NCBI GenBank assembly: GCA_033032865.1 | Contig: JAWHQI010000306.1 | Location: 1,550,001-1,614,000 of the forward strand | Length of the DNA stretch: 64,000 nucleotides | From: Dactylorhiza incarnata | Lineage: Eukaryota > Streptophyta > Magnoliopsida > Asparagales > Orchidaceae | Direction: 5' to 3' | Part shown: one piece after another, positions 1,455-27,606 of the stretch | Position numbering within the stretch: the first letter of the stretch is position 1 | How the letters are laid out: every line of letters starts with the position of its first letter | Made by a program: the position numbers and the translations under genes | Notes under the pieces: model-generated | What the model saw: only the letters and a program-made list of their open reading frames with translations | Told to the model about the DNA's origin: nothing | Database searches by the model: none

Positions 1455-2010
1455 AACTGAAACACGCCATTCGTCGAACCCAGGAAGGAGTTCGTCGAAC
1501 GCAGGCTCGTCGAGCTGAGAAGGGAAACACGCCGTTCGTCGAACCCAGGAAAGAGTTCATCGAACACAGACTGGTCGAGCTGAGAAGGGAGTTTGTGGAA
1601 CTAAAACACGCCGTTCGTCGAACCCATGAAGGAGTTCGTCGAATGCAGACTGGTCGAGCTGAGAAGGGAGTTTGTCGAACTGAAACACGTTGTTCGTCGA
1701 ACCCAGGAAGGAGTTCGTCGAACGCAGACTGGTCGAGCTGAGAACGTTGAGTTAGTCGAACTGAAACACGCCGTTCGTCGAACCCAGGAAGGAGTTCGTT
1801 GAACGCAGCCTGGTCGAGCTGAGAAGGGAGTTCACCGAACTGAAACACGCCGTTCGTAGAACCCAGGAAGGCGTTCGTCGAACGCAGACTGGTCGAGCTG
1901 AGAAGGGATTTCGTCGAACTGAAACACGCAGTTCGTCGAACCCAGGAAAGAGTTTGTCGAACACAGACTGGAGTTCGCAGAAGGAGTTCGTCGAACCTAA
2001 TGACCAGCCT
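1455..2010 (+). repeat. ~79-bp tandem repeat rich in GTTCGTCGAAC palindromes
   Basis: Starts of the unit at about 1469, 1534, 1613, 1692, 1773, 1852 and 1931 give a period of 79-81 bp after a short first unit. Each unit carries two or three TTCGTCGAAC palindromes plus GGTCGAGC. Open frames through the array on both strands only reflect periodicity. The array lies 5' of the possible promoter near 2250-2290. Confidence 0.85.
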
Positions 2011-3808
2011 TGCCCCCTATTCCCAACATGCAATGACATGCAAAGGGGTAAAAGGGTCTTTTTCCCACTTTTCCATTAAGGACAAGGAAGAAAATGGGGA
2101 GGGCTTGCCATATGGCCCTCCTCTCCTCTGCCCAAGGAATTCCCTGAGCCCCACATCAACTCCCAGCCAAATTCTTGCTGAAACAGTGCCATGTGGTGGT
2201 TGAGAGGAGCATCCAAGGGAGAGGCCGAAAACCAACCAGTCCAAACTCCTATAACAGCCCTCCTCACTTCATTTAAAGCTTTCCATCAGCTTCAGAGAGG
2301 TCCAAGTAGACGAGCTAGTGTATTGGAGCAGAGGAAAGGGTGTCGGATCGAGGAATTGAGCAGGATCGTCGGAGCTCGCCGCCACCATGCCGCACCACCA
2401 CAACACTCACCGTCAGCCCTACTTCAGGTCCGGTTTCTCCCCCTCTCCCTCTATGCTAGTATCTAGGTCCATTTAGGAGAGAAATCGGGTTCAATTGAGC
2501 CCGATCCCATGTGAGCTTGAGGGAGAAATTCTGAGTTTTCTCTTCCGCTCGGGATCGCCGGAGAGGCTGTCTCCGGCGGCCGTGTCGCCGCCTGGCGTTA
2601 GCCACCACCTCAACGGAGGTGGTGGAGGCGGTGGCCGGCGGTGGTGGGCCGTGGATGGCCAGGAAATGGAGGTGGAAGGTGGTCCAGGTCGGGCAGATCA
2701 CAGTCGTTGGCTAGAGGTAGAAGATGAAGGAGGGCCATCGGATTTGGGCTGATCTGCTATATGCAGACCACATTAATTCAATTAAATGATTTTGTCACAC
2801 TTTCATATGAATATGCATGCTGGAATTTGAGGCCCTTAGAGGCCTTTTTAGGAAAAGTTGTCTGGGATAACTATTGTAGGCCTTGATGTCTACTTTCATT
2901 TGAAAGTTAAATCAGACCATTTGGATCACTGAAGGACCCACATCACTCACTTTAATGAGGCTGGTCAAAATAGAAATCAGAAATTAGTTTGTGTATATAT
3001 TCTAAAATATAGATCTGATGGACTTGAAATTTTGGTCATGCATGCATGCATGAGCCCTGCATCTAACCTGCACCCAAAAATCAGATTTTTAGGAAATCAT
3101 TTTCCTAAGGTTTTATTCTAAATATGTAAATTCAAATAAATGACATATATGGAAGAATATAGCTCCAACTGAACCCAAATTTGGGTGTCACCCTTATCTA
3201 GCCAATTGTAAGCTGTGGTTAAAATTTGAGACCCAATGGATCTCTGTAGGTAAGGTAAATTTCCATTGCATGTCTCTACCTAAAAGAGAATAGGCGTGTC
3301 AATAGCAAAAATGATATTTTGTGTATTTAGCCTAAATGGCTTAGAGTTAGTCTCTGAAATTTTGCACACACCCTAATTATGGTATAATGCATCACCCTAG
3401 AAAATCTTAGGACTTCTAGCATCAAGAATATCATGATTTTGATTATTTTGCCCTATGTCACACTTGTGTATTTATAAAATTTTCATGATTAGAACTTGGA
3501 AATAAATTATGAAACTCTGGAGGTTCACTTGTTATGTCATTTCAAATCTCTGTAAATTTTGGTAGAAAATTCCAAGGATTATTTCTCAAGGAATTATCAA
3601 AATTACATTATGTCTCAAATCTAAATAATGAAAAATTTACTAGGCAAACTATTTGAGGAAGTGCTGAAATCCTGGATTATGTTTAGAAACTCAATTATGA
3701 AACTCTGTGAATTTTGTTAGAATTTTGGAGATAGTATTTATAGAAGAAATTTCATTTATTCAGTTTATCACCCTTTTTAAATTGTGAGATATTTATGGTG
3801 ATTTATTC
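2011..3808. other. Non-coding body of the putative solo LTR
   Basis: About 2011-2750 is GC-rich and includes CTATAACAG and CATTTAAAG near 2250-2275, possible core-promoter elements followed by a leader. After 2760 the sequence turns AT-rich without ORFs. Short frames at 2191-2466 and 2495-2752 have no recognisable domain and are not called as genes. Confidence 0.5.
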
Positions 3809-4275
3809 CTGGAAAATCATGATCTTCTGGATTTAGTGTTTTCATATCATTATAATGACACTGTATTTTTCTCAGAATTTTTGGAAGTCAAAATATAGTA
3901 CTTGTAGTGTAAAGTCATTTTGTCGCCCTTTTTATGATAAATAGAAATTAAGGGTTTTAATCTGCTGGAAAATTATGGAACTCTGGAACTAGTGTTTTCA
4001 TATCATTATAATGACTCTGTATTTTTCCCAAAAAAATTGGAAGTCAAAATCTAGTACTTGTAGCGTAAAATCATTTTGTCACCCTTTTCATGATAAATAG
4101 AAATTAAGGGTTTTAATCTGCTGGAAAATTTTGGAACTTTGAAATTAGTGTTTTTATATCATGATAATGTCACTGTATTCTTCCCAGAATTGTTGGAAGT
4201 TAAAATCTAGTACATCATGTGTAAAGTCATCATGTCACCTTTTTATGATAATAGAAATTGAGGTCAAACCAATAT
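3809..4275. repeat. 156-bp tandem repeat, three copies
   Basis: The phrase CTGGAAAAT recurs at about 3809, 3965 and 4121, with closely similar text between, giving three units of about 156 bp. AT-rich and non-coding, it sits just upstream of the gypsy insertion point. Confidence 0.8.
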
Positions 4276-4289
4276 GGAATATATCAATA

Positions 4290-4294
4290 TTATG
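4290..4294. repeat. Target-site duplication TTATG (left copy)
   Basis: TTATG lies immediately before the LTR start TGTACAACCC and is repeated at 27607-27611 immediately after the 3' LTR end. This defines the exact ends of the Tat gypsy insertion. Confidence 0.9.
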
Positions 4295-4384
4295 TGTACA
4301 ACCCATATTCTCCAAGGGTAGGACCCACTCAAAGCCACGCAGGCAAAAGTCAAGGTCAAAAGGTCAACACAGAAGTCTTCCAGA

Positions 4385-4491
4385 GTTCGTCGAACGCAGT
4401 CTTCTAGAGTTCGTCGAACGCAGTCTTCCAGAGTTCGTCGAACGCAGCCTTTCAGAGTTCGTCGAACGCAGCCTTCCAGAGTTCGTCGAAC
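4385..4491 (+). repeat. 24-bp U3 repeat with GTTCGTCGAAC palindrome, five copies
   Basis: GTTCGTCGAAC starts at 4385, 4409, 4433, 4457 and 4481, an exact 24-bp period. The spacer CAGTCTTCCAGA varies slightly. The same array in the 3' LTR begins at 26891, with the fourth copy decayed at its CpGs (GTTTGTCGAAT). Confidence 0.92.
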
Positions 4492-4507
4492 ACAAGACAC
4501 TCGCCTA

Positions 4508-4570
4508 CCTGGCCAAGCGAGAAGGAACCTGGCCAAGCGAGAAGGAACCTGGCCGAGCGAGAAGGAAAGG
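4508..4570 (+). repeat. 20-bp U3 repeat, three copies
   Basis: Units of CTGGCCAAGCGAGAAGGAAC follow each other, with CCGAGCGAG in the last. The 3' LTR has one more copy (27016-27095). Confidence 0.85.
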
Positions 4571-4765
4571 CACACCTGGAGCTCGCACCCGGCCGAGCAG
4601 GGAGGGCGTAGGAATGGACATTCTTGCCTATAGGCGACTTGCACCAACCAACTCGCCAGTTTAGGCTGAGGTCCTCACCTAGTCACCTACCTATGCTTTG
4701 CCAAAAAAACCAATTCCAGGGGGATCAGGGATAGTCGCTTGCTTCCTCTCTCTCTCAAGATTTGT

Positions 4766-4775
4766 CTATAAATAG
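4766..4775 (+). promoter_or_regulatory. TATA box of 5' LTR
   Basis: CTATAAATAG is a strong plant TATA element, conserved in the 3' LTR at 27290. Transcription would start roughly 30 bp downstream and run through gag-pol. The palindrome array lies upstream of it, in U3. Confidence 0.75.
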
Positions 4776-5082
4776 ACCCCCAGGGGTACCAGGATTGGCA
4801 CTTGTCAAAAATCAGAGCTGCACCCCCCTTATAGGCGAGAATCCTCCCTAGCCAGTGTCTTCCTAGTACCAAGCTCGGTCATTCGTGGTTTTGGAGGAGA
4901 AGACTCCTTTGAGCTTCTAGGTACGTTGTGGGACCTCCCTGTCGCAGCACCTGGGGTTGTGTTCTTTATCTCCCTGTTTCGCTCGTCGTGGCTAACCAAA
5001 TCTTCTCGTTGAACCGCTGGGCAAGTAGCCTCCGGCTGCATTGATCCGAATTTTGGAACCGGGATTTTCCAGGCTTCAACAC

Positions 5083-5101: not shown

Positions 5102-5140
5102 ATCGTAGCCAGAGGAAGAAAGTCTGGTTGAGAAGGCGAG

Positions 5141-6751
5141 ATGGTCATAGTTAGCGACCACGAGGAGGTGGTAGGTAACCCGGCCAGAGGTAGCGAGTTC
5201 GTAACTTTAGCTGTTTTCGAGGAATTCGCGCGGCGGATAGAAGGCTTCATGCGAGCAGCTCTTCAACCTCGCATGGAAGGAACGGCGACCTCGCCTCATC
5301 GCCCGGGTCCATCCGTGGAAGGTGCTCACCCTCAGTGAGCAGGGAAAGAGCATGTCGAGGAGTTCGAGCGACCAAGGAGGTCGCAGTTTGGTCTGCAGGC
5401 ATCGCAAGGAGCTGACGGAACTCGGTTCCGCGAGGAGGAGGAGCAGGCGAGATACTTCAATACTCGCCAGGCTAGCGAGTATGGAGGAGATACTCGCCAA
5501 GATAATGGTCACCGCCAGATTGGGGGGAGGAGCCCATTCTGTGAGGAGGTCATCGACGCGCCAGTACCGGAGGGGTTCAGGGATCCCGCGATGAATTACT
5601 ACTCGGGGAGGGATGACCCCCTCCGACACATCCAGTGGTTCAAGGATGTCGCCTCCATCCGGACCATGTCTGACGCCTTCAAGTGTAGGTTGTTCGCAAT
5701 CTCCCTCCGAGGGAAGGCAAGGGACTGGTTCCACCAGTTGCTAGCAGGTTCCATCTACTGCTTTGAAGACCTTTGTCGGGGGCTGACCATGCGGTTCGCC
5801 ACGGCAAAGAAGCTGAAGAAGGAAGCAACGACCCTCTTCCACCTGGTGCAGGGGGCGAAGGAAATGTTGGGAGATTACATCGATCGCTTCCAGGAGGAGG
5901 TGTTGGACATCCAGGAGGTGGATGGTCACACCTTGCAGCTGACCCTGACTTTTGGCCTTCGTGAAGGCCTCTTTAAGTTAGAGATCGGTAGGAACCCTCC
6001 ATACTCCTACGACAATCTCATCGAGAGGGCCAATCAGTTTGTACAGGGAGAGGCTTCCAACCGCGGCTTCCTATCCAGGCTCACCCGAGTGACCAAGGAA
6101 GATGAGGAAGAGGAGAAGATCCCCGAGAGGAGAAAGAAGGAAGAGCCCAGGAGGGCAGAGAAGCGGAAGCCGGAAGGAAGAGGCAGGGAAGAGAGAAGAG
6201 AAAGAGAGCCCAGGAGGGAAGAGCCAAGAAGGAACGATGAGAGGAGGCTCATCGTAGCCCCGGAGCGTCGGGAAGAAGAGAGGCGCTACCAAGTCCCCAC
6301 TAACCGACCACCTTGGAAGCCGGCCAGGGAACCTCAGTGTCAGGAACGGGGAAGGAGATCCCCGGAGAGAAGACGCTTCGACAAACCGGAGGGCGCCAAA
6401 AGAGAAGAAGGGAAGAAGCAATGGAGGTTGCCCGACGCGGCAATCGGCAAGGCCGGAAGAACCGGAAGCAGAAGAGGCCACAGGTAGAGGAGGTTCCCCT
6501 CTATTGTGACCTCCATCAGGTGGAGGGGCACGACACGATGGCCTGCCCAGACTTTTGGGAGGCCAGGAGAAGGCTGGCAGCAGGGGAAGCAGGAGGGGAG
6601 CTTCCGAGGATTGAAGCCCTTGTCGAGCCGCCGACAGTTCAAGCCGTCGGCCGAAGGAGGAATGAAGATCGCGTCGACCACGGAGGTCGAGGGGACCTCG
6701 TCCAGGGAGGCAGAGGAGTCGGTGTGATCCACGGGGGAGTGGGGATAGGAG
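5141..6751 (+). pseudogene. Tat gypsy gag (stop codon, frameshift, then split by copia)
   Basis: ATG at 5141 opens a frame interrupted by TGA at 5336-5338 and resuming in the same frame to 6487. Around 5591-6060 is a Retrotrans_gag capsid domain (DDPLRHIQWF, then ARDWFHQL). It is followed by a very charged Glu/Arg-rich stretch. Coding then shifts to the +1-related frame between about 6400 and 6480 and continues with the knuckle YCDLHQVEGHDTMAC at about 6501-6545, typical of Tat gag. At 6751 the frame is broken by the copia element and carries on at 16842 without a phase change once the insertion is discounted. The protein would form virus-like particles and package RNA. Confidence 0.85.
6748..6751. 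repeat. Target-site duplication GGAG (left copy) of copia-1
   Basis: GGAG precedes the left LTR and recurs at 16842-16845 after the right LTR. AGGAG would be five bases if the last A of the LTR is counted as target, so copia-type 5-bp duplication with one ambiguous base is likely. Confidence 0.7.
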
Positions 6752-6984
6752 TGAAAGAATATAGGTATGCTAACTAATTCACCTAGAGGGGGGGTGAATA
6801 GGTCTTTTGAATTTTACTTGATTATTATGGACTGTTAGAACTATTCTAAGCAGAAAATCAAGCAACACAGAAAACACTAATGCATGTATAGAGGTTCTTC
6901 AAGACAGGGTGTCTTGAGTAGTCCTCTTTCCCCCTTCACCTTTCTAACAATGTGTTAGACAAGGTCAACTCCTCCAAACTCGGC

Positions 6985-7335
6985 TCAAAGAGCTTACAAC
7001 TCAGATCCCTCAGGATCTCTCAGGTTTTTCCAAACTCTACCTCAGGCTCAGCAGCCCTACAACTCAGATCAGCTCCTGATCCTACAGCTCAGACCTCAGC
7101 AGGTCCTACAACTCAGACCACAACAGGTCCTACCTCAGGCTAAACAGCCCTACCTCAGATCAGCTCCTGATCCAACAGCTCAGACCTCAGCAGGTCCTAC
7201 AACTCAGAGAATTCCTCCTCCTACAGCTCAGGCAATGAATCCCTACAACTCAGATCAGCTCCTGATCCTACACTCAGGCCTTCAGCCCTACAACTCAGAA
7301 CCCTCAGGTTCCTACAAACTCAGACCAAAAGGTCT
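6985..7335 (-). repeat. Degenerate CTACAACTCAG(A) repeat in copia-1 LTR
   Basis: CCTACAACTCAG, CCTACCTCAGG and CAGCTCCTGATCC are shuffled many times. The matching zone in the other LTR is about 15470-15715 and shorter, showing repeat loss or gain. It lies downstream of the TATA box in the transcribed LTR. Confidence 0.7.
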
Positions 7336-7644
7336 TACAACTCAGGAAAAATGCCGTACAGAAAAATGGTTTAGAAATATTCTACAGCAGAGGTACTCTC
7401 CTGTAGATCCTGCACAGCTTGTGCTTCCTGTAGCTGAAGATGTTGATTACAACCACAACTTGATCTTCCTCTTCAATAGAGTGATGGAAGATCACCTTGC
7501 CCCTTCTGGTGGAGGAGCTATCTTCTTCTCTCTTATTCTTCTTCTCTTTCAGTGGCAGGAAGAAAGTCGAGAGCAGCAGCCGTTAATGGCGAATCGAGAT
7601 TTTGCACGCAATCGGTCGGGGCTTTGAAAAAGCCCTAACACTTT

Positions 7645-7653
7645 CTTTTATAC
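7645..7653 (-). promoter_or_regulatory. TATA box in copia-1 LTR
   Basis: The minus strand reads GTATAAAAG here, and the same at 16005-16013 in the 5' LTR. It separates palindrome-rich U3 from the transcribed R/U5. Confidence 0.6.
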
Positions 7654-7782
7654 TTCTTTTATCTTCAACGGATCTAATTTGATCTCCCAAGAAGTATGGG
7701 AGAGATCGGTGGTCCCCTGTAGTTTTTCTACAACTTGCCCTAGCCGCAGGTCCCACCGCCCTACTTGTCTGTAGAGAAGGTC

Positions 7783-8310
7783 TGCGTTCGACGAACCCGC
7801 TTCACTCTGCGTTCAACGAACCCGCTGCATCCTGCGTTCGACGAACTTGCCAAGCCTACGTTCGACGAACTTGCCTTGTCTCTGCGTTCGACGAACGGCA
7901 CTCTGCGTTCGACGAACAGGCCAAGCTCTCAGTTGTTTCTTCCTTTCTGTCTGCGTTCGACGAACTGCCTTCTGAGTTCGACGAACATGCCAGAACTCAT
8001 CTGATTCTTCTATCTCGTCTCAGCGGTCGACGAACTGTATTCTGCGTTCGACGAACGACACTCTGCGTTCGATGAACACGCTTTTTTTCTTTCTCAGCGG
8101 CTCCTTCCCTGATCTCGTCTCAGCGGTCGACGAACTTTGTTCTGCGTTCGACGAACGACACTCTGCATTCGACGAACATGCCTTTTGTGTCTTCTCAGCG
8201 GCTCCTTCTCTGGTCTCGTCTCAGCGGTCGACGAACTGAGCCCTGAGTTCGACAAACGACACTCTGCGTTCGACGAACACGCTGATTCTCAGCGTTTGAT
8301 GAACTTATCA
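7783..8310 (-). repeat. CG-palindrome array in copia-1 U3
   Basis: CTGCGTTCGACGAAC and variants (CAGCGGTCGACGAAC, CTGAGTTCGACGAAC) recur some eighteen times with irregular spacers. The reverse complement, GTTCGTCGAACGCAG, is the motif found in the Tat LTR and at 1455-2010. Short ORFs through the array are periodicity artefacts. Confidence 0.88.
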
Positions 8311-8578
8311 GATGAGACACCTTCTTCTCAGCAGATCCGCTGAGACGGCTCCTCGTCTCAGCGGTTTTGACCCTTCGTCTCAGCGGTTCTGCTGAGACAA
8401 ATCTTCATCTCCTTGTAGATGATTTCTCCACATCTAAGGGCATGTTTGGCCCTTGCTTTTGAGTCACCTGTACCTGTATATACTACACAAGTATAGTTTT
8501 ATCAAATACAATATGTCCTTAGTATTGAGAGTGATGCCTCTTCAAATCAAGGTAATATTGAGGGCAATATTCCCAACA

Positions 8579-9446
8579 ATCTCCCCATATTTGAAGAAGG
8601 CAGAACATCCTCAATGCTAAGGTACATAGCCAACAAAAACATATCATGATAGCACATGAAGGACATATTATTTAAATGTTCTATAATATAATCATGATAA
8701 CCTGGAATAACAACTACATGATACAACATTGTTGGACAGTGACCCTGCCGATGAGACAGCAACCATAGGTCGACGCTTTTTGCTCACAGGCGTCGAGCGA
8801 TGTGTGGTGGCTCGACGTTTGGTCGACTTACAGGCGTCGAGTGATGTGTGGTGGCTCGACGCTTGGAGCTAGATGAACTCATCTCCCCCTTTCTAGTTGA
8901 GATAGAGTAGCATATCATGATAACTAACTTAGAGGGCTAACACAACTTTGGTCTTAGCAGCTAGCATTCCATCTCCTATTTGCACTTATCAAGACCAAAT
9001 TTGGTCTTAGCATTGGCATTCTCCCCCTTTCTGGATTCTTCAATCTCTTTCCCATTAGGGAATAAGATACTTCAGCCTCTTACTCTTTTCAGGATAACCT
9101 ACATCTTATCTGACCTACTGAGCATTAGCTATCTCCCCCTCAACTTGATCAGGAGCTTGCTCCCCTTTAATTGGAGCACCTGTATTGACCCAGATAAATC
9201 CCTTCTGATTAAAAGAAAAAAAAAAACTGGAATTACAGCTGATCATGATGTTTCAGATCCAGCTGATCACTTTAATCTATTCTATAGTTAACAACTTAGG
9301 GAGATTATCTACCCTATTAGTGGATTATGCCTATTGAAGGAAGATCAATTCATATATTAATATATCATATCAACATTTTATGATAGATTTAACAGAAAAC
9401 AACATAAGCAATTTAACACATAATATATATATGTTCAGAAATGACT
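8579..9446 (-). other. 3' untranslated region and PPT of copia-1
   Basis: Next to the LTR the minus strand reads ATATGGGGAGAT, a good polypurine tract for plus-strand priming. The rest is AT-rich and non-coding. At 8766-8866 a ~57-bp unit with GGCGTCGAG...GGCTCGACG inverted repeats and GTCGAC occurs twice. Confidence 0.75.
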
Positions 9447-10889
9447 TCATTCTAAATTCAACATGCCTAAGTCAATTTTAAAATAATTAAACTTGGCCTC
9501 ATCTAGTGGCTTAGTGAAGATGTCGGCTACTTGATTGTCTGTAGGGACATATTCAAGTTTGATATATTCACACTCTATATGCTCTCTAATAAAATGATAC
9601 CTAATTTCTATATGCTTGGTCCTGCTATGGGAGACAGGATTTTTAGCAATAGAAATTGCACTGGATGAGTCACACAGCATGGGAGATTGTCTTACCTTGA
9701 TGTTGTAATCTTCCAACTGATGTTGTATCCACAGAATTTGAGCACAACAGCTACCTGCTGCAATGTACTCTGACTCAGCTGTGGACATTGTCACACTGGT
9801 TTGCTTTTTGCTGCTCCATGAGACCAGCCTCCTCCTTAGGAATTGACAGGTGCCACTTGTGCTTTTCCTGTCCTCTTTGCATCCTGCAAAATCTGCATCT
9901 GAGTAGCCTATCAGTTCAAAATCATTGTTCATAGGGTACCAAAGGCCAAGATTCAGGCTTCCCTTGAGGTATCTCAAGATCCTCTTAACAGAGGTGTAGT
10001 GAGATTTCTTAGGACAGACTTGATACCTAGCACAAACACATGTAGAATACATAATGTCTGGCCTACTAGCAGTTAAGTACAACATGGATCCAATGATACA
10101 CTTGTACATGGATTCATCAAAGGCCTTCCCCTTTTCATCATTGTCTAATGATACATTAGATCTCATTGGTGTTCTCATGGTGGAGGCAGACTCCATCCCA
10201 AATTTCTTGATGAGCTCCTTGATGTACTTGGTCTGGGAGATGAAAATTCCATCATCAGTCTGTTTCACCTGGAGCCCAAGGAAATATTTGAGCTCACTCA
10301 TACTGCTCATCTCAAACTCCCCCTGCATTAGATTAGCAAATCTCTTGCAGAGGTTGTCATCAGTAGACCCAAAAATTATGTCATCAACATAAATTTGGAC
10401 TAAGAGACACTTACCCCTTGTTTCCCTAAGAAACAATGTGTTATCAATCTTTCCCCTCATGAACTTGTTCTTGAGGAGAAAGTTGGACAAAGTCTCATAC
10501 CAAGCTCTTGGAGCTTGCTTAAGACCATACAGGGCTTTCCTAAGAAAATAGACATGAGATTTAAGAGTAGGATGTACAAAACCTGATGGCTGCTCTACAT
10601 ATACTTCCTCTTTTAGATTTCCATTCAGGAATGCTGATTTGACTTCCATCTGGTAGACTTTGAAGCCCTTGTGAGCAGCATATGCTAGGAATAGTCTTAT
10701 GGCCTCCAACCTTGCAACTGGGGCAAAAGTTTGGTCAAAGCCTATTCCTTCCTCTTGCCTATATCCTTTTGCAACCAGCCTTGCTTTGTTTTTGATGATT
10801 GTCCCATTCTCATCTAACTTATTTCTGAATATCCATTTGGTGCCAATGATGTTGTGTCCTTCTGGTCTTGGCACCAACTTCCATACTTT
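9447..10889 (-). CDS. Copia-1 pol, reverse transcriptase-RNase H part
   Basis: RVT_2-type reverse transcriptase followed by copia RNase H and a conventional pol C-terminus ([10 protein letters not shown]). The active-site box is YVDD at about residues 163-166 counted from 10877. The other catalytic aspartate motif reads [10 protein letters not shown], with Glu where copia RTs have Asp, so the enzyme is probably inactive. RNase H shows YSDAD and STAESEY. It is in the same frame as the upstream protease-integrase part, separated only by TGA at 10890-10892. Product role: cDNA synthesis in virus-like particles. Confidence 0.92.
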
Positions 10890-12596
10890 TCATCTTTTGA
10901 ATTGCAAAAGCTCTTCCTGCATAGCCTGAATCCAGAATGGATCCATGTTAGCCTCTTCAAACCTTTTAGGCTCTACCTGTGATAGAAAACTGAGGAACCA
11001 GGCCTCATTGTGAGCCCTGCTCCTTGTTGTCACACCTTGCTGAACATTCCCTATTATCTGCTCTATGGGATGATCCCTTAGATGTCGGGTAGCTGCAGTC
11101 ATTCTGTTATCATGTTGCTGTGCTGTTTCTGCAGGTTCAGCAGCTTCTTCATCAAGGTTAACTTCTTCCTCTTCTGGGTTGGCAGCATCATAATTTGTTT
11201 TGCTACAGCTGGGAGTGTCTTGTATAGACATCCTTTCCAATTCCTGTTCATTTCCTGTCAAAACAGAAGATCTAGACCAGTCTTTATATATTATGCTGGT
11301 CTCATCAAAAACTACATGCATAGACTCCTCTACAACATGAGTTTTCTTGTTGTATACTCTATAAGCTCTACTATGAGAGTTATAGCCAACAAGAACACCT
11401 ACATTGCATTTCTCTGCAAACTTTGTTAATTGGGATTTACCATTATTTAGAATGTAGCATTTGGAGCCAAAGATCCTAAAACATGAAATTGTAGGTTGTT
11501 TGCCTTTCAGAATTTTATAGGGGGTTATCCCATGAACCTTATTGATAGAGGCTCTATTGAGAACATAACAAGCTGTATTGACTGCCTCAGCCCAGAAATA
11601 TTCTGGGAGTGAGGAATCACTAAGCAGTGTTCTCCCAACTTCCATCAAGGTCCTATTCCTCCTCTCAGCCACACCATTTTGTTGTAGAGTCCTTGGGGAG
11701 AAAAACTCTTGTGTGATACCAAATTCTTGACAAAATCTTGTCATTGCATCATATTGAAATTCTGTGTCATGGTCAGTCCTAGTCCTGACCACAGCACATT
11801 GTAGATCATTCTGAATTGCCTTGACATGATTGATAAAGACATCTAAAGTATCAGATTTCTTCTTAAGGAAGAATACCCATCTATATTTTGAGTGATCATC
11901 AACAATCACCAAAGTATACAACTTCCCACCTAGGCTCTGAATTGGCAAAGGACCAAACAAGTCCATATGCAAGAGATAAAGACATCTTTCAGTGTCTTTG
12001 GAGCCAATACTTTTAAAGGTGGCCCTAGTTTGCTTACCCATTTGGCATGCATGACAGGGACCATCTTTAATACATTTTAAGTTTGGACTATTCCTAACAA
12101 AATTTTTAGATAAAAGTCTATACATTGTCTTGTAGTTAATATGAGCAAGTCTCTTGTGCCATTGAACACAAAGAGACTCATTCTCATTAGCTACAAGACA
12201 CACAGAAGTAAAATAATTACTGCAAATGAAATCTAAGCAATAAACATTTCCACTCCTAGTGCCTGAGAGAATAGTCTCTAAGTCATTTGACTTTTTGATC
12301 AAGCACTTGTCATTGTGGAATTCAATGACATAGCCTAAGTCACATAGTTGACTTATGCTTACTAGGTTGTGCTGCAACCCTTCAACATAAGCTACCCTTG
12401 TGATTGTAACTATGTCATTGGAGATCATACCATAGCCTTTGGTGACTCCTGTTTCACCTCCCCCAAATATAACTTTGGGTCCATTCTTCACAGGCTTGTA
12501 ATCCTGTAGAAGACTCCTAGTTCCTGTCATGTGCCTTGAGCACCCACTGTCCAAGTACCATATTTTGTTGAGACTGGCACTTGAACTTCCCTGCAA
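10890..12596 (-). CDS. Copia-1 pol, protease-integrase part
   Basis: Aspartic protease site LDSGCSRHMTG near the start, GAG-pre-integrase/HHCC zinc finger (H...H then CHACQMGKQ) around residues 155-200, and the integrase core with D in HMDLFGPLP, D in TDHDTEFQ and E in NGVAERRNRT. There is no ATG: the frame opens at TTG directly after TTTCTTTGCAGGG. That string follows the gag stop at 12605 in another frame, so expression may use frameshifting or splicing. Ends at in-frame TGA 10890-10892. Confidence 0.92.
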   Translation of the reverse strand: MQGSSSASLNKIWYLDSGCSRHMTGTRSLLQDYKPVKNGPKVIFGGGETGVTKGYGMISNDIVTITRVAYVEGLQHNLVSISQLCDLGYVIEFHNDKCLIKKSNDLETILSGTRSGNVYCLDFICSNYFTSVCLVANENESLCVQWHKRLAHINYKTMYRLLSKNFVRNSPNLKCIKDGPCHACQMGKQTRATFKSIGSKDTERCLYLLHMDLFGPLPIQSLGGKLYTLVIVDDHSKYRWVFFLKKKSDTLDVFINHVKAIQNDLQCAVVRTRTDHDTEFQYDAMTRFCQEFGITQEFFSPRTLQQNGVAERRNRTLMEVGRTLLSDSSLPEYFWAEAVNTACYVLNRASINKVHGITPYKILKGKQPTISCFRIFGSKCYILNNGKSQLTKFAEKCNVGVLVGYNSHSRAYRVYNKKTHVVEESMHVVFDETSIIYKDWSRSSVLTGNEQELERMSIQDTPSCSKTNYDAANPEEEEVNLDEEAAEPAETAQQHDNRMTAATRHLRDHPIEQIIGNVQQGVTTRSRAHNEAWFLSFLSQVEPKRFEEANMDPFWIQAMQEELLQFKR

Positions 12597-12604
12597 AGAA
12601 AGAT

Positions 12605-14037
12605 TTAGTTATCCTTAGGATCCCAAAAAGCTTTGGGTCCTAAGTGCCTGTTAGTTTGATGAGATACTCTCACACTAGCTACACTCCTAGCAGGAAAGCT
12701 CTTCTTTGCATTAGGTACATTGGGGTTGTACCAACAATCTATGACAAAGTGTCCCACCTTGCCACAGCACCAACAATCATGAATATTGTATCTCCTTTTC
12801 TGAACAGTTTTTTGAATTGGTACAGCACTGTGCACATGTTCAGCAGAAGAGACTGCAGCATTCTTCCTGTCTCTTTCAGCAATAATCTGACTGAAGGATA
12901 ATCTGTGAACAGTCTTGCTGCTCTTTATCCTGATAGCCTCAGCTTGCTTTGGCTTGGCAGCCATACAAGATCTGATGGAATCAGACACTGGGCAGCAGGC
13001 CTTGTCAACAGATTTGACAGCAGTCTTGCTTTTTGCTGAAGCTGATTTGGAAGAGCATGCTTTCATGTTCTTGACTGGAGGTGCTGAGACACCAAACACA
13101 AATGGTCCAGATTGGGTCATTTGTATTTCCTCATGGGGAGCTTTCATTGCACTCAATTCCATGCCTTTTCTATCACTATGGGAAGGAGTATTTTCCTTCC
13201 TATAGGATCTCCCATTCTTCCAGTGACCATAAATGCTTTCATGGTCATACCTGTTGGATGGAAGAAGCACTTTTTGAAAGGTGGTTTGAGGCTTAGCCTT
13301 CTTCTTGCTCTTTACTCCACTCCCTTCTCCTACTTCCATCTTATTGAATCCAAGTCCTCTCCTATTGGTTTGAGAGGAGAAGGTGTCAATAATGGGAAGC
13401 ACGGATTTGGGCTTGGAGAATTGAGCCACCAGGCTCTTCTCTTTCACCAGCTTCTCCTCAAGGTCCTTGATGACCTTGTTCTTCAGGGAAATAGTGCTCA
13501 ATTGAACACTTGTCATACCCTTTAAATGACTTATTTGTCTACTCATCTGGGCCACTAGGGAGGTAGGTCCAGTGTAGTCACATTCAGTCTTCTTAAGGGA
13601 GGCAATTTCCTGGGCTTGCCTCTTGGAAAGCTTCTTGCTATCTTTCAGAGAAATCACAAGAGCATCATACTTGTCAATCAATTGATTGACATCTACCTCA
13701 GCTTCTGAAACACTTCCATCATGTGATGGTTGAGCCTCAGATTCTGGACATGCACCATGATCAGGAAAAGAAGTGGAATGGATTGATACCTGATCATTGT
13801 CAGAACAGTTCTGACAGTCTTCCTCATCAGTGAAGGCCATAAGGCCTATCTGAACACAGTCTTCTTCATCCTCCTCTTCATCACTATCAGAGTGTGAAAG
13901 AGGGGCCCTGATTCCTATCCTATCAGCAGGATAGTTTTCATCCTCCTGAGCAGCAAACAGCCCAATGTAGGCTTTCTCTTCTTCATCTGAATCTGAAGAT
14001 GAAGATGAAGATTCACTCCAGCTCTTGCTTTTCTTGG
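12605..14037 (-). CDS. Copia-1 gag, C-terminal part with coiled coil and second zinc knuckle
   Basis: ATG at 13840 gives 411 codons, but the frame is open upstream to about 14037 with Ser/Asp/Glu-rich text that continues the gag of the preceding frame. Hence a frameshift near 14040 rather than a new gene. It contains a coiled coil (about residues 50-150), a basic Ser/Lys-rich stretch and the knuckle CWCCGKVGHFVIDC near the C-terminus. A second coil-plus-knuckle module is seen in SIRE/Maximus-like gag and also in the element at 40438-41520. Confidence 0.85.
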
Positions 14038-15148
14038 CTAGAAAGGATTTTCTCCCTTCCTCTCCTTCTTGTGATGAGGCTTCTTTTCACCTCTCTCTTT
14101 CCTTTTGACTGGGCAGTCAGCAATGACATGCCCAGGCTTGCTGCAGCAATAGCAAACAATATTATCTGAAGCATGTTTACTAGTTTTAGAGTCATACCTG
14201 TCCCCTTTGGGGTGCTGCGTTTCAGATCTAGAGTGATCCTTCTTGGAGTGTGATGAGGAGGAGGGCTTGCTCTTCCAATGATTCCTCCTCATCATCTTCT
14301 TGAACTGCCTAGAGAAGGCAGCAAATTCTTCATCAGAAGAAGAGCAGTCTGGAGAGCAGCTCTCAGACTTCTCAGATTCAGCAATCCTTCTTGGAGGTGA
14401 CTGCAACCTGCTCTTGCTCTTCTTTGAGCTATCATCTTTTAGAGCAATAGTTCTCTCCTTTGTGTGAGCCTTGGAGGAAATATCCTCCTTCTTTCTTGCA
14501 GTCAATTGCATCTCATATGAGAGCAATTTCCCAAACAGTGTGTGAGTGGGGGTTTCTCCAAGTCTTGCCCCTTCCCTGATTGCACAGATTTTTGTGTCCC
14601 AATCCCTAGTTAGAGATCTAAGGAACTTGTCATTCAGCTCATAATCAGTGAATGCTCTCTCATAGGTTCTTAGTTCATTTACTATCCTAAAGAACCTCTC
14701 ATAGCACAGGGATATGCTTTCCTGGGGCAGCTGCCTAAAGGCTTCATATTCTTGGTTAAGGAGTGATTTTCTATCATCCCTTACTTCAGCTGTCCCTTCC
14801 ATGTATACAACCAATGTGTCCCACATTTCCTTGGCAGTTGTGCAGTGTAAAGTTCTGAAATGTAGTGTCATCAATTGCATTAACAATTATATTCTTGGCC
14901 CTTTTGTCCATAGTGTATAAAGCCATTTCATCATTGGACAGATCAGCAAGTACCTTGAGTACTTTTCTAGTAGGGTCAATAGTGGAGGCTTTCTCAAAGG
15001 TATAAGGTCCATTCTTGATTGTTACATATATCCTTGGGTTTGAGGCTTCCATGAACAGCCTCACCCTTTGCTTCCATATTCCAAAGTTTTCTTTGGAGCA
15101 TATGGGCAACTTCATTGACCCCAACTCCTTCACTCCACTGGAGGCCAT
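14038..15148 (-). pseudogene. Copia-1 gag, N-terminal part (frameshifted)
   Basis: ATG at 15148 begins the gag: MASSGVKELGSMKLP, then FGIWKQRVRLFME, the capsid N-terminus of plant copia gag. A frameshift between about 14886 and 14786 moves coding to the frame that runs to 14038. That frame has the UBN2-like capsid core (ERFFRIVNELRTYERAF) and the knuckle CYCCSKPGHVIADC. The first ATG lies about 65 bp downstream of the PBS. Confidence 0.88.
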
Positions 15149-15226: not shown

Positions 15227-16004
15227 CTTGAAAGAATATAGGTATGCTAACTAATTCACCTAGAGGGGGATTGAATATGTCTTTTGAATTTTACTTGATT
15301 ATTATGGACGGTTAGAACTATTCTAAGCAGAAAATCAAGCAACACAGAAAACACTCATGCATGTATAGAGGTTCCTCAAGACAGGGTGTCTTGAGTAGTC
15401 CTCTTTCCCCCTTCACCTTTCTAACAATGTGTTAGACAAGGCCAACTCCTCCAAACTCGGCTCAAAGAGCTTACAACTCAAATCCTCAGGATCTCTCAGG
15501 TTTTCCAAACCCTACCTCAGGCTCAGCAACCCTACAACTCAGATCAGCTCCTGATCCTACAGCTCAGACCTCAGCAGGTCCTACAACTCAGACCACAACA
15601 GGTCCTACCTCAGGCTAAATATCCCTACCTCAGATCAGCTCCTGATCCAACAGCTCAGACCTCAGCAGGTCCTACAACTCAGAGAATTCCTCCTCCTACA
15701 GCTCAAGCAAAATGCCCTACAGAAAAATGGTTTAGAAATATTCTACAGCAGAGGTACTCTCATGTAGATCCTGCACAGCTTGTGCTTCCTGTAGCTGAAG
15801 ATGTTGATTACAGCCACAACTTGATCTTCCTCTTCAATAGAGTGATGGAAGATCACCTTGACCCTTCTGGTGGAGGAGCTATCTTCTTCTCTCTTATTCT
15901 TCTTCTCTTTCAGTGGCAGGAAGAAAGTCGAGAGCAGCAGTCGTTAATGGCGAATCGAGATTTTGCACGCAATCGGTCGGGGCTTTGAAAAGCCCTAACA
16001 CTTT

Positions 16005-16013
16005 CTTTTATAC
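16005..16013 (-). promoter_or_regulatory. TATA box of copia-1 5' LTR
   Basis: GTATAAAAG on the minus strand. The palindrome array lies directly upstream, at 16139-16560, in U3. Confidence 0.6.
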
Positions 16014-16138
16014 TTCTTTTATCTTCACCGGCTCTAATTTGATCTCCCAAGAAGTATGGGAGAGATCGGTGGTCCCCTGTAGCTTTTCTGCAACTTGCCC
16101 TAGCCGCAGGTCCCGCCGCCCTACTTGTCTGTAGAGAA

Positions 16139-16560
16139 GGTCTGCGTTCGACGAACCCGCTTCACTCTGCGTTCGACGAACGACACTCTGCGTTCGACGA
16201 ACAGGCCAAGCTCTCAGCTGCTTCTTCCTTTCTGTCTGCGTTCGACGAACTGCCTTCTGAGTTCGACGAACATGCCAGAACTCATCTGATTCTTCTATCT
16301 CATCTCAGCGGTCGACGAACTGTATTCTGCGTTCGACGAACACGCTCTTTGCTTTCTCAGCGGCTCCTTCCCTTGTCTCATCTCAGCGGTCGACGAACTT
16401 TGTTCTGCGTTCGACGAACGGCACTCTGCATTCGACGAACACGTCTTTTGTGTCTTCTCAGCGGCTCCTTCTCTGGTCTCGTCTCAGCGGTCGACGAACT
16501 GAGCCCTGAGTTCGACGAACGGCACTCTGCGTTCGACGAACACGCTGATTCTCAGCGTTT
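16139..16560 (-). repeat. CG-palindrome array in U3 of copia-1 5' LTR
   Basis: Same CTGCGTTCGACGAAC family as 7783-8310 but with several copies fewer, so copy number has changed since insertion. Confidence 0.85.
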
Positions 16561-16841
16561 GATGAACTTATCAGCTGAGACACCTTCTTCTCAGCGGATC
16601 TGCTGAGACGGCTCCTCGTCTCAGCGGTTTTGACCCTTCGTCTCAGCGGTTCTGCTGAGACAAATCTTCATCTCCTTGTAGATGATTTCTCCACATCTAA
16701 GGGCATGTTTGGCCCTTTCTTTTGAGTCACCTGTACCTGTATATACTACACAAGTATAGCTTTATCAAATACAATATGTCCTTAGTATTGAGAGTGGTGC
16801 CTCTTCAAATCAAGGTAATATTGAGGGCAATATTCCCAACA

Positions 16842-17594: not shown

Positions 17595-17606
17595 AGTGCT
17601 GCTGAG

Positions 17607-18164
17607 ATGCCCGGGATCGACCCAGAGGTTGCTTGTCACCACCTCAATCTCGACCCCGCGGTGAAGCCCGTCCGCCAGAAGAAGAGGTCAAGTGCCACCG
17701 TGTTGGCCGGACCTATCCGTGAAGAGGTGAAGAAGCTGCTGGATGCGGGTTTTGTGTCAGAGATCCAGTACCCAGGCTGGGTCTCAAATGTTGTAATGGT
17801 AAAGAAAGCTGTGGGCAGCTGGAGGATGTGTGTAGACTTCTCGTTATTAAATAAAAGCTGCCCGAAGGATTGTTATCCCTTGCCTCGAATCGACGCACTG
17901 GTTGATTCAGCCGTCGGTTTCCCTGTGATGAGCTTCCTTGACGCGTTTTCAGGATACCACCAGATACGGATGTATCCCCCCGATTGCCGCGATGTTTCCT
18001 TCATCACTGGAGATGGCTGCTATAGCTACAAAATGATGCCCTTCGGGCTAAAAAATGCAGGAGCAACCTACCAGCGGATGATGGACCTCGTCTTCAAAGA
18101 ACAGAAAGGGAGGAACCTGGAGGTATACGTGGACGACCTCTTGATCAAAAGCAAGAGCGTCTGA
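17607..18164 (+). CDS. Tat gypsy reverse transcriptase, fingers-palm
   Basis: RVT_1 domain: PGIDPEVACHHL at the start, FLDAFSGYHQI (catalytic Asp), MPFGLKNAGATYQR and YVDDLLIKSK. Same frame as the protease, joined across the TAG at 17592. TGA at 18162-18164 interrupts it just after YVDD. Confidence 0.92.
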   Translation: MPGIDPEVACHHLNLDPAVKPVRQKKRSSATVLAGPIREEVKKLLDAGFVSEIQYPGWVSNVVMVKKAVGSWRMCVDFSLLNKSCPKDCYPLPRIDALVDSAVGFPVMSFLDAFSGYHQIRMYPPDCRDVSFITGDGCYSYKMMPFGLKNAGATYQRMMDLVFKEQKGRNLEVYVDDLLIKSKSV

Positions 18165-18938
18165 GAGCATATAGCGAATTTGGTGGAGACCTTTGCAACG
18201 CTAAGGAAGTTCAAGATGAGGTTCAATCTGGCAAAATGCGTGTTCGGAGCCGGAAGAGGAAAGTTTTTGGGGCATCTCATCACTCCGGGAGGAGTTGAGC
18301 CGAATCCTGACAAGGTCAAGGCAATCCTAGAGATGGCCTCGCCGAAGACCATGAAAGAAGTCCAAAGGCTGACAGGAAGGTTGACAGGTCTTAGCCGCTT
18401 CCTGTCCAAGGCAGGAGAGAAGTGCTCTCCCTTTTTCAAGACGCTCCGCAAGAGCGAGAACTTCGCATGGACCGACGAGTGCGAGAAGGCGATCGGTAGG
18501 CTGAAGGAGCAGTTGACTCAGACACCTCTCCTTCAGAGCCCGAAAGAAGGCGAAGACCTACTCATCTACTTGGGAGTAGGGGTGGAAGCAGTAAGTTCCG
18601 TGCTGGTCCGTGAAGAAGGAAGGATGCATCTCCCCATTTATTATGTTAGCCAGGTGCTCAAGAAGGCGGAGTTGAAGTATCCAATCTTAGAGAAGCTTGC
18701 CTTCGCCTTGGTGGTGTCGGCGCGAAAGCTCCGACCTTATTTTCAAGCTCACTCCATCCGAGTCGTGACTGACCATCCTCTCCGAAATATCCTGGAAGGG
18801 GTGGAGCATTCCGGGAGGCTGGCGAAGTGGTCGGTAGAACTCAGCGAGTTCGATATTTCCTTCTCACCCCGGGTGGCGATCAAAACACAGGCGGTAGCGG
18901 ATTTTTTAGCCGACTTCTCAGTAGAGGCGGAGCCATGA
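18165..18938 (+). CDS. Tat gypsy RT thumb/connection and RNase H
   Basis: Continues the same frame after TGA 18162. FNLAKCVFG and FLGHLITPGGVE mark the RT end; then the gypsy RNase H (LLIYLGVGVEAVSSVL, YYVSQVL, VVTDHPL). An in-frame TGA at 18936-18938 ends this segment. The ATG track start at 18228 or nearby is not biologically meaningful; this is part of a polyprotein. Confidence 0.9.
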   Translation, partial: EHIANLVETFATLRKFKMRFNLAKCVFGAGRGKFLGHLITPGGVEPNPDKVKAILEMASPKTMKEVQRLTGRLTGLSRFLSKAGEKCSPFFKTLRKSENFAWTDECEKAIGRLKEQLTQTPLLQSPKEGEDLLIYLGVGVEAVSSVLVREEGRMHLPIYYVSQVLKKAELKYPILEKLAFALVVSARKLRPYFQAHSIRVVTDHPLRNILEGVEHSGRLAKWSVELSEFDISFSPRVAIKTQAVADFLADFSVEAEP

Positions 18939-20672
18939 GAGGAGGCTTCTACTCCCATCCCCTGGAAGATGTTCGTGGACGGAGCCTCAGGCAAGAGCTC
19001 TGTGGGGGTGGGCATCGTTCTTGTCAGCCCATAGGGAACTAGGATCGAGCAAGCCGTCGAGATCCTCTTCCCCGTCACGAACAATCAGGCGGAATACGAG
19101 GCCATCGTAGCAGGCTTGCGCCTCGCAAAGGAGCTGGGCATCCAAGACGCCATGGCTTTCACCGATTCATTGGTGGTCGCGTCTCAGATTCGGGGAGAGT
19201 TCGAAGTACGCGACACCATTCTACAAAAGTACCTCGTAAAGGTGAAAATATTGATTGGAGGCTTCCAATCCTTCTTCGCCGAGCACGTACCGAGAGAGGA
19301 GAACTCAGCTGCGTATCGTCTGGCCAAATACGGGCCAAGAGCAGGAGGGACCATCACGGAGCTATTTCGACCATCCATTGCGGAAGGAGAGATGATGGAG
19401 ATCGATCAACGCCCCTCGTGGAGGGATCCATTCGTGGCGTTTCTGAACACCGGGCAGCTTCCTGCGGAGGAAGGGGACCAAAGAAAGTTTCGGTACAAGG
19501 CGACATACTACTTATTGCAAGATGGGGAGCTCTATCGCAAGACCATCTCGGGCCCTCTGGCTAGACGTGTCTCTGAAAATGAAGTACCTCGAGTGTTGGA
19601 GGAAATCCACTCGGGAGAGTGCGGAAGCCATTCTGGGACTCGCACTTTGGAACAAAGGATCTTGAGGCACGGCTACTTCTGGCCCACTATCCGCAAGGAT
19701 GCGGAGGCCTTCTCAAAAAAGTGCCAGAAGTGTCAGCTGTTCGCCCTCCTTCGATTGCAGCCGGCCCAGCAACTTCGTTCGATCACCGCCCCGAGGCCGT
19801 TCGCTATCTGGGGAATGGATTTGATAGGCCCCTTTCCTTCGGCTAGCGGCCAGAGAAAGTTCATTCTCGTCATGATCGACTATTTCTCCAAGTGGATTGA
19901 GGCCAAAGCTCTGGCCAAGACCACCTCTCAAGTCGTGAAGAACTTCATCTGGGGAGAAATCGTCTGCAGATTCGGAATTCCTCTCGCCATCATCACAGAC
20001 AACGGTCCTCAGTTCGCGAGTTTGGAGCTGGAGGATTTTTGCAGACAGCTCGGAACTGATCTCCGGTTCGCGTCGGTACATCATCCCAGGAGCAATGGAC
20101 AAGTGGAGGCCGCCAACAAGCTGATCAGCAACTTACTCAAGAAGAAAGTCGAGAACCTAAGAGGTAATTGGGCGGAGCAGCTCCCCTCGGTATTGTGGGC
20201 TTTGAGTACCACTCCTAGCTCAGTCACAGGGGAAACCCCGTTCAAACTCTCTCACGGGTCCGAAGCTCTCATTCCAGTAGAGTTCGAGGTCAGAAGTCCT
20301 AGGGTGATTGCAGCAGAAGATGGAGACGAAGAATGGAGACTGGAGAATGAGGAAGCCCAGAAGCTGTCCCTCAACGACATTGAAGAGCTCCGAGATCTAG
20401 CCTCGGCTCGGCAAGAGGAGATCAAGCGTCGCATGGCGAGACACTTCGACAAGCACGTTCGTCTCAAGCACTTCCAAGCAGGTGATCTAGTCCTGAAGAA
20501 AGTGGACGCAGCCGGGAGATCGGTAGTCTTTGGTCAGCTCAACCCTAATTGGGAGGGACCTTTCATCATCCACGAATCACTAGCAACAGGAGGATATCGC
20601 TTACAGAATCACGAAGGGGAGCTATTGGGGAATACATGGAGCGGCGATGACCTGAAAAGGTTTTATCCCTAG
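18939..20672 (+). CDS. Tat gypsy archaeal-type RNase H and integrase
   Basis: The first part (WKMFVDGASGKSSVGVG, then NNQAEYEAIVAGL, AFTDSLVVASQ) is a second RNase H of archaeal type, as in the Tat clade. TAG at 19032-19034 breaks it in frame. From about 19560: HHCC zinc finger (HSGTRT...CQKCQ), integrase core with D (WGMDLIGPF), D (ITDNGPQF) and E (NGQVEAANK). A C-terminal domain ends DDLKRFYP with a stop at 20670-20672. There is no chromodomain, consistent with a non-chromovirus. Confidence 0.93.
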
Positions 20673-24935: not shown

Positions 24936-24945
24936 CTATTTATAG
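24936..24945 (-). promoter_or_regulatory. TATA box of antisense ORF A
   Basis: CTATAAATAG on the minus strand, about 85 bp upstream of the ATG at 24851. It is the same decamer as in the LTR and before ORF B, with matching flanks (AAATC before it in ORF B, GAAATC-like here; G-run after). Confidence 0.65.
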
Positions 24946-24951
24946 AAATCG

Positions 24952-25220
24952 GGTGGGGGGTCGCAACGTAAGTTCGTGCGAGGTGTCTACCTACTCGCCT
25001 ATACCGATGTCGCGCATACTACAACATATGCGAGGTGTTAACCACCCTTTTCGCATCTAAGCGATGATCTACAAAAAAACACGAGAAACCCCTGCAGAAG
25101 ACAAAGGAAACACGAATGCGATCAAGCAACATAGTTCGAAATTACAGCAAGCAAGCAATTCGAGATTATTACAGATACTCGCAGAATAATGTTCTTAAGA
25201 ATACAAGTTAGAAAGCGATG
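24952..25220. other. Spacer between antisense ORFs A and B
   Basis: Non-coding; contains upstream promoter DNA of ORF A and the 3' end of ORF B. No other signal seen. Confidence 0.5.
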
Positions 25221-26608: not shown

Positions 26609-26655
26609 CTCGTCGAATGTGAAAAAGTGGCATGCCAGGGAAGGACCATCCCCCT

Positions 26656-26665
26656 CTATTTATAG
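26656..26665 (-). promoter_or_regulatory. TATA box of antisense ORF B
   Basis: CTATAAATAG on the minus strand about 48 bp upstream of the ATG at 26608, followed by AGGGGG as in ORF A's box. Confidence 0.65.
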
Positions 26666-26677
26666 ATTTCTAGGGAC

Positions 26678-26701
26678 CCCCCCCCCCCCCCTCTCTCTCT
26701 A
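26678..26701 (+). repeat. Poly-C and (CT)n tract
   Basis: A long C homopolymer followed by CT dinucleotides just upstream of the PPT; length may be uncertain in the assembly. Confidence 0.7.
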
Positions 26702-26784
26702 CCTGCCGAGTAAGTTATTTTCCCGCCGAAAATAATTCGTCGAATACGGGTTGGATGATTCTTTCCGATCAACTATGTCGCTCA

Positions 26785-26800
26785 CAAAGAGCGGGGATTG
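26785..26800 (+). other. Polypurine tract of Tat gypsy
   Basis: AAAGAGCGGGGATTG lies directly before the 3' LTR start TGTACAACCC; expected primer of plus-strand DNA. Confidence 0.75.
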
Positions 26801-27606
26801 TGTACAACCCATATTCTCCAAGGGTAGGGCCCACTCAAAGCCACGTAGGCAAAAGTCAAGGTCAAAAGGTCAACACAGAAGTCTTCCAGAGTTCGTCGAA
26901 CGCAGTCTTCCAGAGTTCGTCGAACGCAGCCTTCCAGAGTTCGTCGAACGCAGCCTTCCAGAGTTTGTCGAATGCAGCCTTCCAGAGTTCGTCGAACACA
27001 AGACACTCGCCTACCTGGCCAAGCGAGAAGGAACCTGGCCAAGCGAGAAGGAACCTGGCCAAGTGAGAAGGAACCTGGCCGAGCAAGAAGGAAAGGCACA
27101 CCCGGAGCTCGCACCCGGCCGAGCAGGGAGGGCGTAGGAATGGACATTCTCGCCTATATGCGACTTGCACCAACCAACTCGCCAGTTTAGGCCGAGGCCC
27201 TCACCTAGTCTCCTACCTATGCCTTTGCCAAAAAACCAATTCCAGGGGGATCAGGGATAGTCTCCTGCTTCCTCTCTCTCAAGATTTGTCTATAAATAGA
27301 CCCACAGTGGTACCAGGAATGACACTTGTCAAAAATCAGAGATGCACCCCCCCTTATAGGCGAGAATCCTCCCTAGCCAGTGCCTTCCTAGTACCAAGCT
27401 CGGCCATTCGTGGTTTTGGAGGAGAAGACTCCTTTGAGCTTCTGGGTACGTGGTGGGACCTCCCTGTCGCAGCACCTGGGGTTGTGTTCTTTATCTCTCT
27501 GTTTCGCTCGTCGTGGCTAACCAAATCTTCTCGTTGAACCGCTGGGCAAGTAGCCTCCGGCTGCATTGATCCGAATTTTGGAGCCGGGATTTTCCAGGCT
27601 TCAACA
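26801..27606 (+). repeat. 3' LTR of Tat gypsy element
   Basis: Matches 4295-5081 with scattered substitutions and one extra 20-bp unit. Palindromes at 26891, 26915, 26939, 26963 (decayed) and 26987; TATA CTATAAATAG at 27290-27299. TSD TTATG follows at 27607-27611. Confidence 0.92.

Follow-up and report, generated by a model that had tools for sequence, protein, structure and literature searches.

Why do the long terminal repeats (LTRs) of retrotransposons from different superfamilies carry the same short palindrome, multiplied into arrays? The question is raised by a 64-kb stretch of the Dactylorhiza incarnata genome (contig JAWHQI010000306.1, positions 1,550,001 to 1,614,000; called the window here), which consists largely of nested retroelements and from which the frequency, origin and function of the palindrome are all judged below. 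The LTRs in question belong to a solo LTR (A), a gypsy element (B) and a copia element (C). A first-pass annotation of this DNA had pointed to the shared 15-mer and called for a cause other than common ancestry. On balance, and with considerable reserve, the analysis described here leads us to favor a reading in which the palindromic box is the unit of an enhancer-type array bound by one factor that promotes transcription, with the same factor used by several unrelated families.

The box and its arrays

The 15-mer GTTCGTCGAACGCAG was searched for with up to two mismatches, and the matches on both strands were assigned to LTRs. The window contains 54 matches, compared with a mean of 0.07 (maximum 1) in 100 dinucleotide shuffles, and a chance origin of this count is excluded. 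The matches are distributed over five LTR arrays (14 in A and five in each LTR of B on the plus strand; 17 in the left and 13 in the right LTR of C on the minus strand) and none of the 54 lies beyond them, confirming the earlier statement that gypsy and copia LTRs carry the same box. Exact copies account for 25 of the 54. The palindrome, GTTCG-T-CGAAC, is made up of two five-base arms around a single base. While the annotation took the whole 15-mer as the shared unit, the unit that is conserved is GTTCGTCGAACnCAG, in which position 12 is free. The sequence TTCGNCGAA is found at 43 sites in the window, 42 of them within the five arrays; the remaining site, at 26736, is located 65 bp ahead of the B 3' LTR. 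The arrays are as follows.

1469..1996, plus strand: box array of A, with 21 units resembling the box (11-mer, up to two mismatches) in a 79-bp higher-order unit
4385..4495, plus strand: box array of the B 5' LTR, five units with a period of 24 bp
26891..27001, plus strand: box array of the B 3' LTR, five units with a period of 24 bp
7782..8278, minus strand: box array of the C 3' LTR, 17 units, with the TATA box 134 bp downstream
16142..16541, minus strand: box array of the C 5' LTR, 13 units

The periods differ between the families, as had been noted: boxes are spaced by 21, 22 and 36 bp within the 79-bp unit of A, by 24 bp in B, and mostly by 21 bp in C, where spacings of 24–26 and 48–59 bp also occur. 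In B, a clear TATA box follows the end of the array after 276 or 294 bp (LTR position 473 in the 5' LTR), and the array of C is likewise followed by a clear TATA box, 134 bp on. The nearest candidate in A lies 254 bp past the array and is only TATA-like. The position upstream of a promoter that was originally described for all three arrays is consequently clear for B and C and tentative for A. Element C also contains CTCAGCGG/CCGCTGAG repeats at 8281–8400 and 16550–16665, which are nearer to the published CGG-CCG signature discussed below, and units of the form GTTCGTCGACCGCTGAG in these two stretches combine both box types.

The conservation of the box was compared with that of its surroundings using units that differ from the 11-mer at no more than two positions (21 units from A, five from the B 5' LTR and 17 from the C 3' LTR, with the 13 units of the C 5' LTR as a check). 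Between A, B and the C 3' LTR, the 11-mer is 90–96% identical and the CAG 71–85%, whereas the six bases on either side of the 15-mer are 17–33% identical, which is about chance. Identity at position 12 is 21–24% between families (71% for B versus C). The same pattern is seen inside C, as units within the 3' LTR array are 93% identical in the 11-mer and 84% in nCAG compared with 35–39% in the spacers (5' LTR array: 95%, 83% and 32–42%). Because nCAG played no part in the choice of units, the contrast between nCAG and spacers is free of search selection. In A, nCAG is only 56% identical because a third unit type of the 79-bp repeat is without it. The footprint kept between families and the footprint kept inside C coincide, which suggests a putative protein binding site. 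In a second comparison, seven units of A were brought into register through an anchor that lies outside the box, and substitutions other than those at CpG sites affect 2/126 positions in boxes versus 19/276 in spacers (Fisher p 0.029). The lower divergence of the box between the two LTRs of C (1/154 versus 17/268, p 0.0046) is not used as evidence, because copy number is not the same in the two arrays and the difference may be exaggerated by misalignment of spacers.

A longer U3 block shared by the LTRs was considered and rejected. With the boxes masked, no significant similarity was found among five LTR pairs of A, B and C (best BLAST match E 0.24), in agreement with the first-pass annotation. 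When the boxes are left in place, a 39-bp stretch that includes two boxes spaced by 21 bp is common to A and C (89.7% identity), and 21 bp is the commonest box spacing of both. Repeats of GCTGAG are also found among the boxes of A and C, with six in the left part of A and 13 and 12 in the C LTRs; B has one. These likenesses hint at some shared history of A and C.

Elements that carry the box

The window preserves a series of insertions in which an ENV-like gene was entered by solo LTR A, A by gypsy B, and B by copia C.

1348..4294, plus strand (inferred): left part of solo LTR A, starting TGTAAT and cut by B
27612..29784, plus strand: right part of solo LTR A, ending CTTACA and starting past the second of B's two TTATG copies
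4295..5081, plus strand: B 5' LTR, pairing with 26801–27606; the element is flanked by TTATG
5339..6487, plus strand: B gag frame (Pfam Retrotrans_gag, E 2.3e-12), beyond which B is interrupted by C
17595..20672, plus strand: B pol frames with reverse transcriptase, RNase H, second RNase H and integrase (Pfam RVT_1, RT_RNaseH_2/RT_RNaseH, RVT_3, Integrase_H2C2, rve)
26801..27606, plus strand: B 3' LTR, pairing with 4295–5081
6752..8578, minus strand: C 3' LTR, 1,827 bp; GGAG flanks the element
8883..9140, minus strand: three exact AGGGGGAG polypurine octamers near the C 3' LTR (starts 8883, 9021, 9133)
9450..14886, minus strand: C gag-pol frames with gag, integrase and copia-type reverse transcriptase (Pfam Retrotran_gag_2, rve, RVT_2)
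15229..16841, minus strand: C 5' LTR, 1,613 bp

Element B as a whole spans 4295–27606 and element C spans 6752–16841 within it. Both LTRs of B and both LTRs of C contain arrays. The two LTRs of one insertion are copies of a single template, and the arrays of B and C are therefore older than the insertions of these elements, barring two separate later conversions.

Tat gypsy elements have a gypsy-type domain order in which RNase H is followed by a second RNase H and then by integrase. The order in B is RVT_1, RT_RNaseH, RVT_3, Integrase_H2C2 and rve, and B is consequently classed as Tat-type by domain order rather than by a tree. Between pol and the 3' LTR (22947–26659, minus strand), B also contains antisense frames, several of which are broken by stops.

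Element C is best described as a Sirevirus-like copia element, on the basis of marks given for Sireviruses in PMC2829016 (Bousios et al. 2010) rather than a tree. Its three octamers lie within about 0.56 kb of the LTR (a further copy of AGGGGGAG is in pol, at 10317), an AT/TG attachment site is present, and the terminal octamer, ATGGGGAG, is one base off AGGGGGAG. The primer binding site (PBS), TATCAGAGG, matches the Sirevirus PBS TATCAGAGC at 8/9 positions, and inspection by eye identified a C-rich signal, CCCCCTCTAGGTG, near the end of the 5' LTR. An inverted repeat is described in PMC2829016 as bordering the terminal polypurine tract, its right arm averaging 28 bp inside the LTR; in C, judged by eye, CTTCAAAT directly precedes the tract and ATTTGAAG lies 31 bp inside the LTR, with an arm of 8 bp that is under the 28-bp average of that study. 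The TATA box is located mid-LTR (830/1613 and 927/1827), and the box array ahead of it has traits of the Sirevirus repeated motifs, being palindromic, present in 13 + 17 units and dense in CpG (observed/expected 1.57 and 1.64). The core of the box is TTCGnCGAA, and the CGG-CCG core signature is absent from it. No Pfam match was found for the C frame at 12608–14086. Among the best 120 of 5190 matches, the protein closest to the integrase frame is from the orchid Platanthera zijinensis (60% identity over 95% of the query).

The solo LTR had been annotated as 1455–2010 and is considerably larger, at about 1348–4294 plus 27612–29784, or 5,120 bp once B and its 5-bp duplication are removed. Its flanks, TGATT and TAATC, are taken as a 5-bp duplication with two differences. 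The gene that it splits (ATG at 342) shares 31% identity over 161 residues with the ENV-like frame at 45700 (pairwise E 7e-22), and a proline-rich frame that starts at 29786, behind the solo LTR, resembles the end of this gene by eye. The array position and the TATA-like site suggest that A is in the plus orientation. Comparison of its ends by eye with the Del consensus TGTAACACCC in PMC4029996 points the opposite way, as the left end, TGTAATATCT, matches at 7/10 positions and the reversed right end, TGTAAGACCC, at 9/10. The longest Del LTR in the same source is 4,831 bp. Being a solo LTR, A retains no internal region with coding domains. The number of unrelated families sharing the box, given as three by the first-pass annotation, is certain for two only (gypsy B and copia C), because the class and orientation of A are not proven; A is probably a third.

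Known systems, CpG content and other repeats

The first-pass annotation overlooked systems in which related observations had been made (the four papers compared here are used in part, and statements about them are limited to those parts). The nearest of these is described in PMC2829016, where 13 Sireviruses have palindromic repeated motifs, which were not seen in the other copia elements studied there. The motifs are present in at least eight copies per element, with 3–14 in the 3' LTR, reach the density of CpG islands, vary in sequence by family and occupy the upper part of the LTR, ahead of a mid-LTR TATA box; 12 of the 13 that are listed contain CGG-CCG, Tnd-1 being the exception. The part of the study used here reports that a common binding factor for these motifs was not found. 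The box resembles them as a short, many-copy, CpG-dense palindrome before the TATA box, and families in the window also differ in motif. It differs from them in its TTCGnCGAA core and in its presence in gypsy B and solo LTR A, the comparison in PMC2829016 being confined to copia. A further parallel is found in maize, where structured Helitron regions also have the Sirevirus palindrome CACCGGACNNNGTCCGGTG as their commonest motif (PMC10760457), so that in both cases one palindrome occurs in two superfamilies of one genome. The superfamilies are copia and Helitron in maize and, in LTRs, copia and gypsy in the window; the same source describes Ty3 elements as generally without a structure peak. 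In PMC4029996, LTRs of Del gypsy elements contain variable 5' CpG islands. Del LTRs and A are alike in having a CpG-rich block of variable length near one LTR end, but the part of PMC4029996 used here describes no cross-family box such as that of A, and A is not proven to be Del. A literature search over titles and the starts of abstracts, in which absence is weak evidence, returned no description of a Sirevirus-type palindrome in gypsy LTRs. Sharing across superfamilies thus has a partial precedent in maize, and what appears new here, within the sources as used, is that a Sirevirus-type box is also present in a gypsy element.

The observed/expected ratio of CpG is 1.46–1.80 in the arrays and 0.32–0.70 in the remainder of the same LTRs (A, the B 5' LTR and both C LTRs). 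Protection of the arrays from CpG decay after insertion was rejected, as 7/61 array CpGs and 7/52 elsewhere have decayed (p 0.78). Since array CpGs decayed as often as others, we infer from these small counts that active source copies, rather than protection of the copies seen here, probably sustain the CpG density. RNA structure was also rejected as a common function, with z-scores of -1.21 (A), -1.53 (B 5' LTR) and -1.10 (C 5' LTR) and a score of -1.47 for a neighboring control outside the arrays. Finally, the box is not a heat-shock element, because TTCnnGAA has two-base spacing and the box has three, TTCGTCGAA.

Other families in the window have palindromes of their own. The sequence CAACGATCGTTG (CAACGATCGTTGACCG) forms clusters at about 41059–41315, 45060–45610 and 62700–63060 and also occurs at 56490. 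The CAACGATCGTTGACCG clusters belong to an ENV-bearing Sirevirus-like element, in which they are found in the gag–pol interval, immediately ahead of the ENV-like gene (45060–45610) and in LTR-like DNA; a poorer copy of the box with three mismatches is seen by eye among them, at 41104–41118. A third palindrome, TAACGCC-GGCGTTA, occurs in an LTR-like stretch near 32850–33070 and again at 33890–33915, and this stretch has a long C run near 34092 and the PBS-like sequence TGGTATCAGAGCG near 34139. Both families look Sirevirus-like by eye, from a C-rich run, a PBS-like site or an ENV-like gene. Their possession of distinct palindromes indicates that LTRs here are not in general required to carry the shared box. 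In the second Sirevirus-like element, the ENV-like frame is followed downstream, at 47426–49153, by a 23-bp minisatellite of about 55 copies, which stands beside an AT-rich palindromic 18-bp array.

Searches for the box in viral and prokaryote contig collections gave no match that was taken as plant DNA. The viral collection contains one match, on a contig of 59% GC with a few box-like copies, which we read as chance. The match in the genome collection lies in a Spartobacteria metagenome-assembled genome (contig L002, 4644–4932), where GAGTTCGTCGAACACAGCCCG forms a 21-bp tandem array of 13.8 copies that resembles the plant box with 21-bp spacing. The contig has 65% GC and frames that look bacterial by eye, and its array is perhaps a heptapeptide-coding repeat of coincidental likeness. 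For two pol frames, one each from C and B, no relatives could be confirmed in the viral collection, and when the frame that runs through the C 5' LTR array was used as a protein query, no match was obtained among 1131 candidates at E up to 1.

Explanations for the sharing and their meaning

In the reading that we favor, repeats of GTTCGTCGAACnCAG would form an enhancer-type cis-regulatory array within the upstream portion of the LTR, and one sequence-specific DNA-binding protein would act on it to promote transcription of the element, as proposed for the Sirevirus palindromes. Use of this one factor by unrelated LTR retrotransposon families would maintain the same footprint in each, while array period and spacers would drift and copy number would change through tandem duplication; each family may have evolved the box itself or acquired a seed copy from some other element. 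Protein binding, activation of transcription and a single common factor are each what we infer from the arrays.

Several points weigh against this reading. Fourteen specified bases make a long footprint for a typical plant transcription factor. The box is also asymmetric: among 53 units with at most one mismatch in the 11-mer (18 in A, five in the B 5' LTR and 13 + 17 in C), nCAG follows 40 and CTGn precedes none, so a simple symmetric dimer does not explain it. The identities of the 11-mer given above are inflated by the choice of units at up to two mismatches, and when CpG sites are counted in A, boxes (13/220) and spacers (24/317) do not differ (p 0.49). The upstream spacer of B is also well kept (87%), each B LTR having only five units, and a literature search by motif letters returned neither a factor nor a motif for the box. 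A wider proposal, in which one trans-acting factor, encoded by the host or an element, drives a cross-superfamily regulon because copia and gypsy elements converged on or traded the 14-base box, is conceivable but doubtful.

The sharing itself would be explained without selection if a short array had moved between families through chimeric cDNA, gene conversion or nest recombination elsewhere, and its flanks had since diverged. The main support for such a transfer is the likeness of A and C (the 39-bp match, the 21-bp spacing and the GCTGAG repeats); furthermore, the non-palindromic nCAG flank is common too, and it stands on the same side of the box in B and C when each is read in its coding direction. 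However, the LTRs show no significant match once boxes are masked, flanks are near chance between families, B differs in period and has a single GCTGAG, and copying within this nest, which the first-pass annotation named as a refuting condition, is excluded for B and C by the arrays in both of their LTRs, again barring two separate conversions. Transfer is regarded as rather unlikely. It is improbable that the arrays are a captured host satellite or neutral minisatellite with no regulatory role. Tandem repeats are common in the window (61 overlapping rows), array RNA folds unremarkably and array CpGs decayed like others, all as this explanation would have it, but neutral tandem duplication should keep spacers as well as boxes, which is not the case in C, and it would be unlikely for such DNA to have been captured independently, time after time, ahead of the promoter in both B and C. 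Finally, the box could be the target of a trans-acting protein encoded by a retroelement and hijacked by other families, as VANC proteins act on short motifs that lie in non-coding tandem repeats and are variable among related VANDAL elements (PMC5735166, in the part used). The box and VANDAL targets are both short sequences that tandem repetition has multiplied in non-coding transposon DNA, and B has its extra antisense frames. VANDALs are DNA transposons with an element-encoded binder, whereas no DUF1985 or DUF287 domain was found in the 10 frames and the further five antisense B frames scanned (E up to 0.001), the latter five had no match to any Pfam family, and several antisense frames are broken. 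This explanation is judged highly improbable.

A regulon of the kind described above, if real, would mean that its families are switched on together and that a single protein controls a large share of transposition in the genome. A box common to unrelated families also narrows the search for the factor, which must recognize GTTCGTCGAACnCAG and need not be element-specific. The shared box would also serve as a natural case in which convergence of transposons on one host regulator can be told from an exchange of promoter parts.

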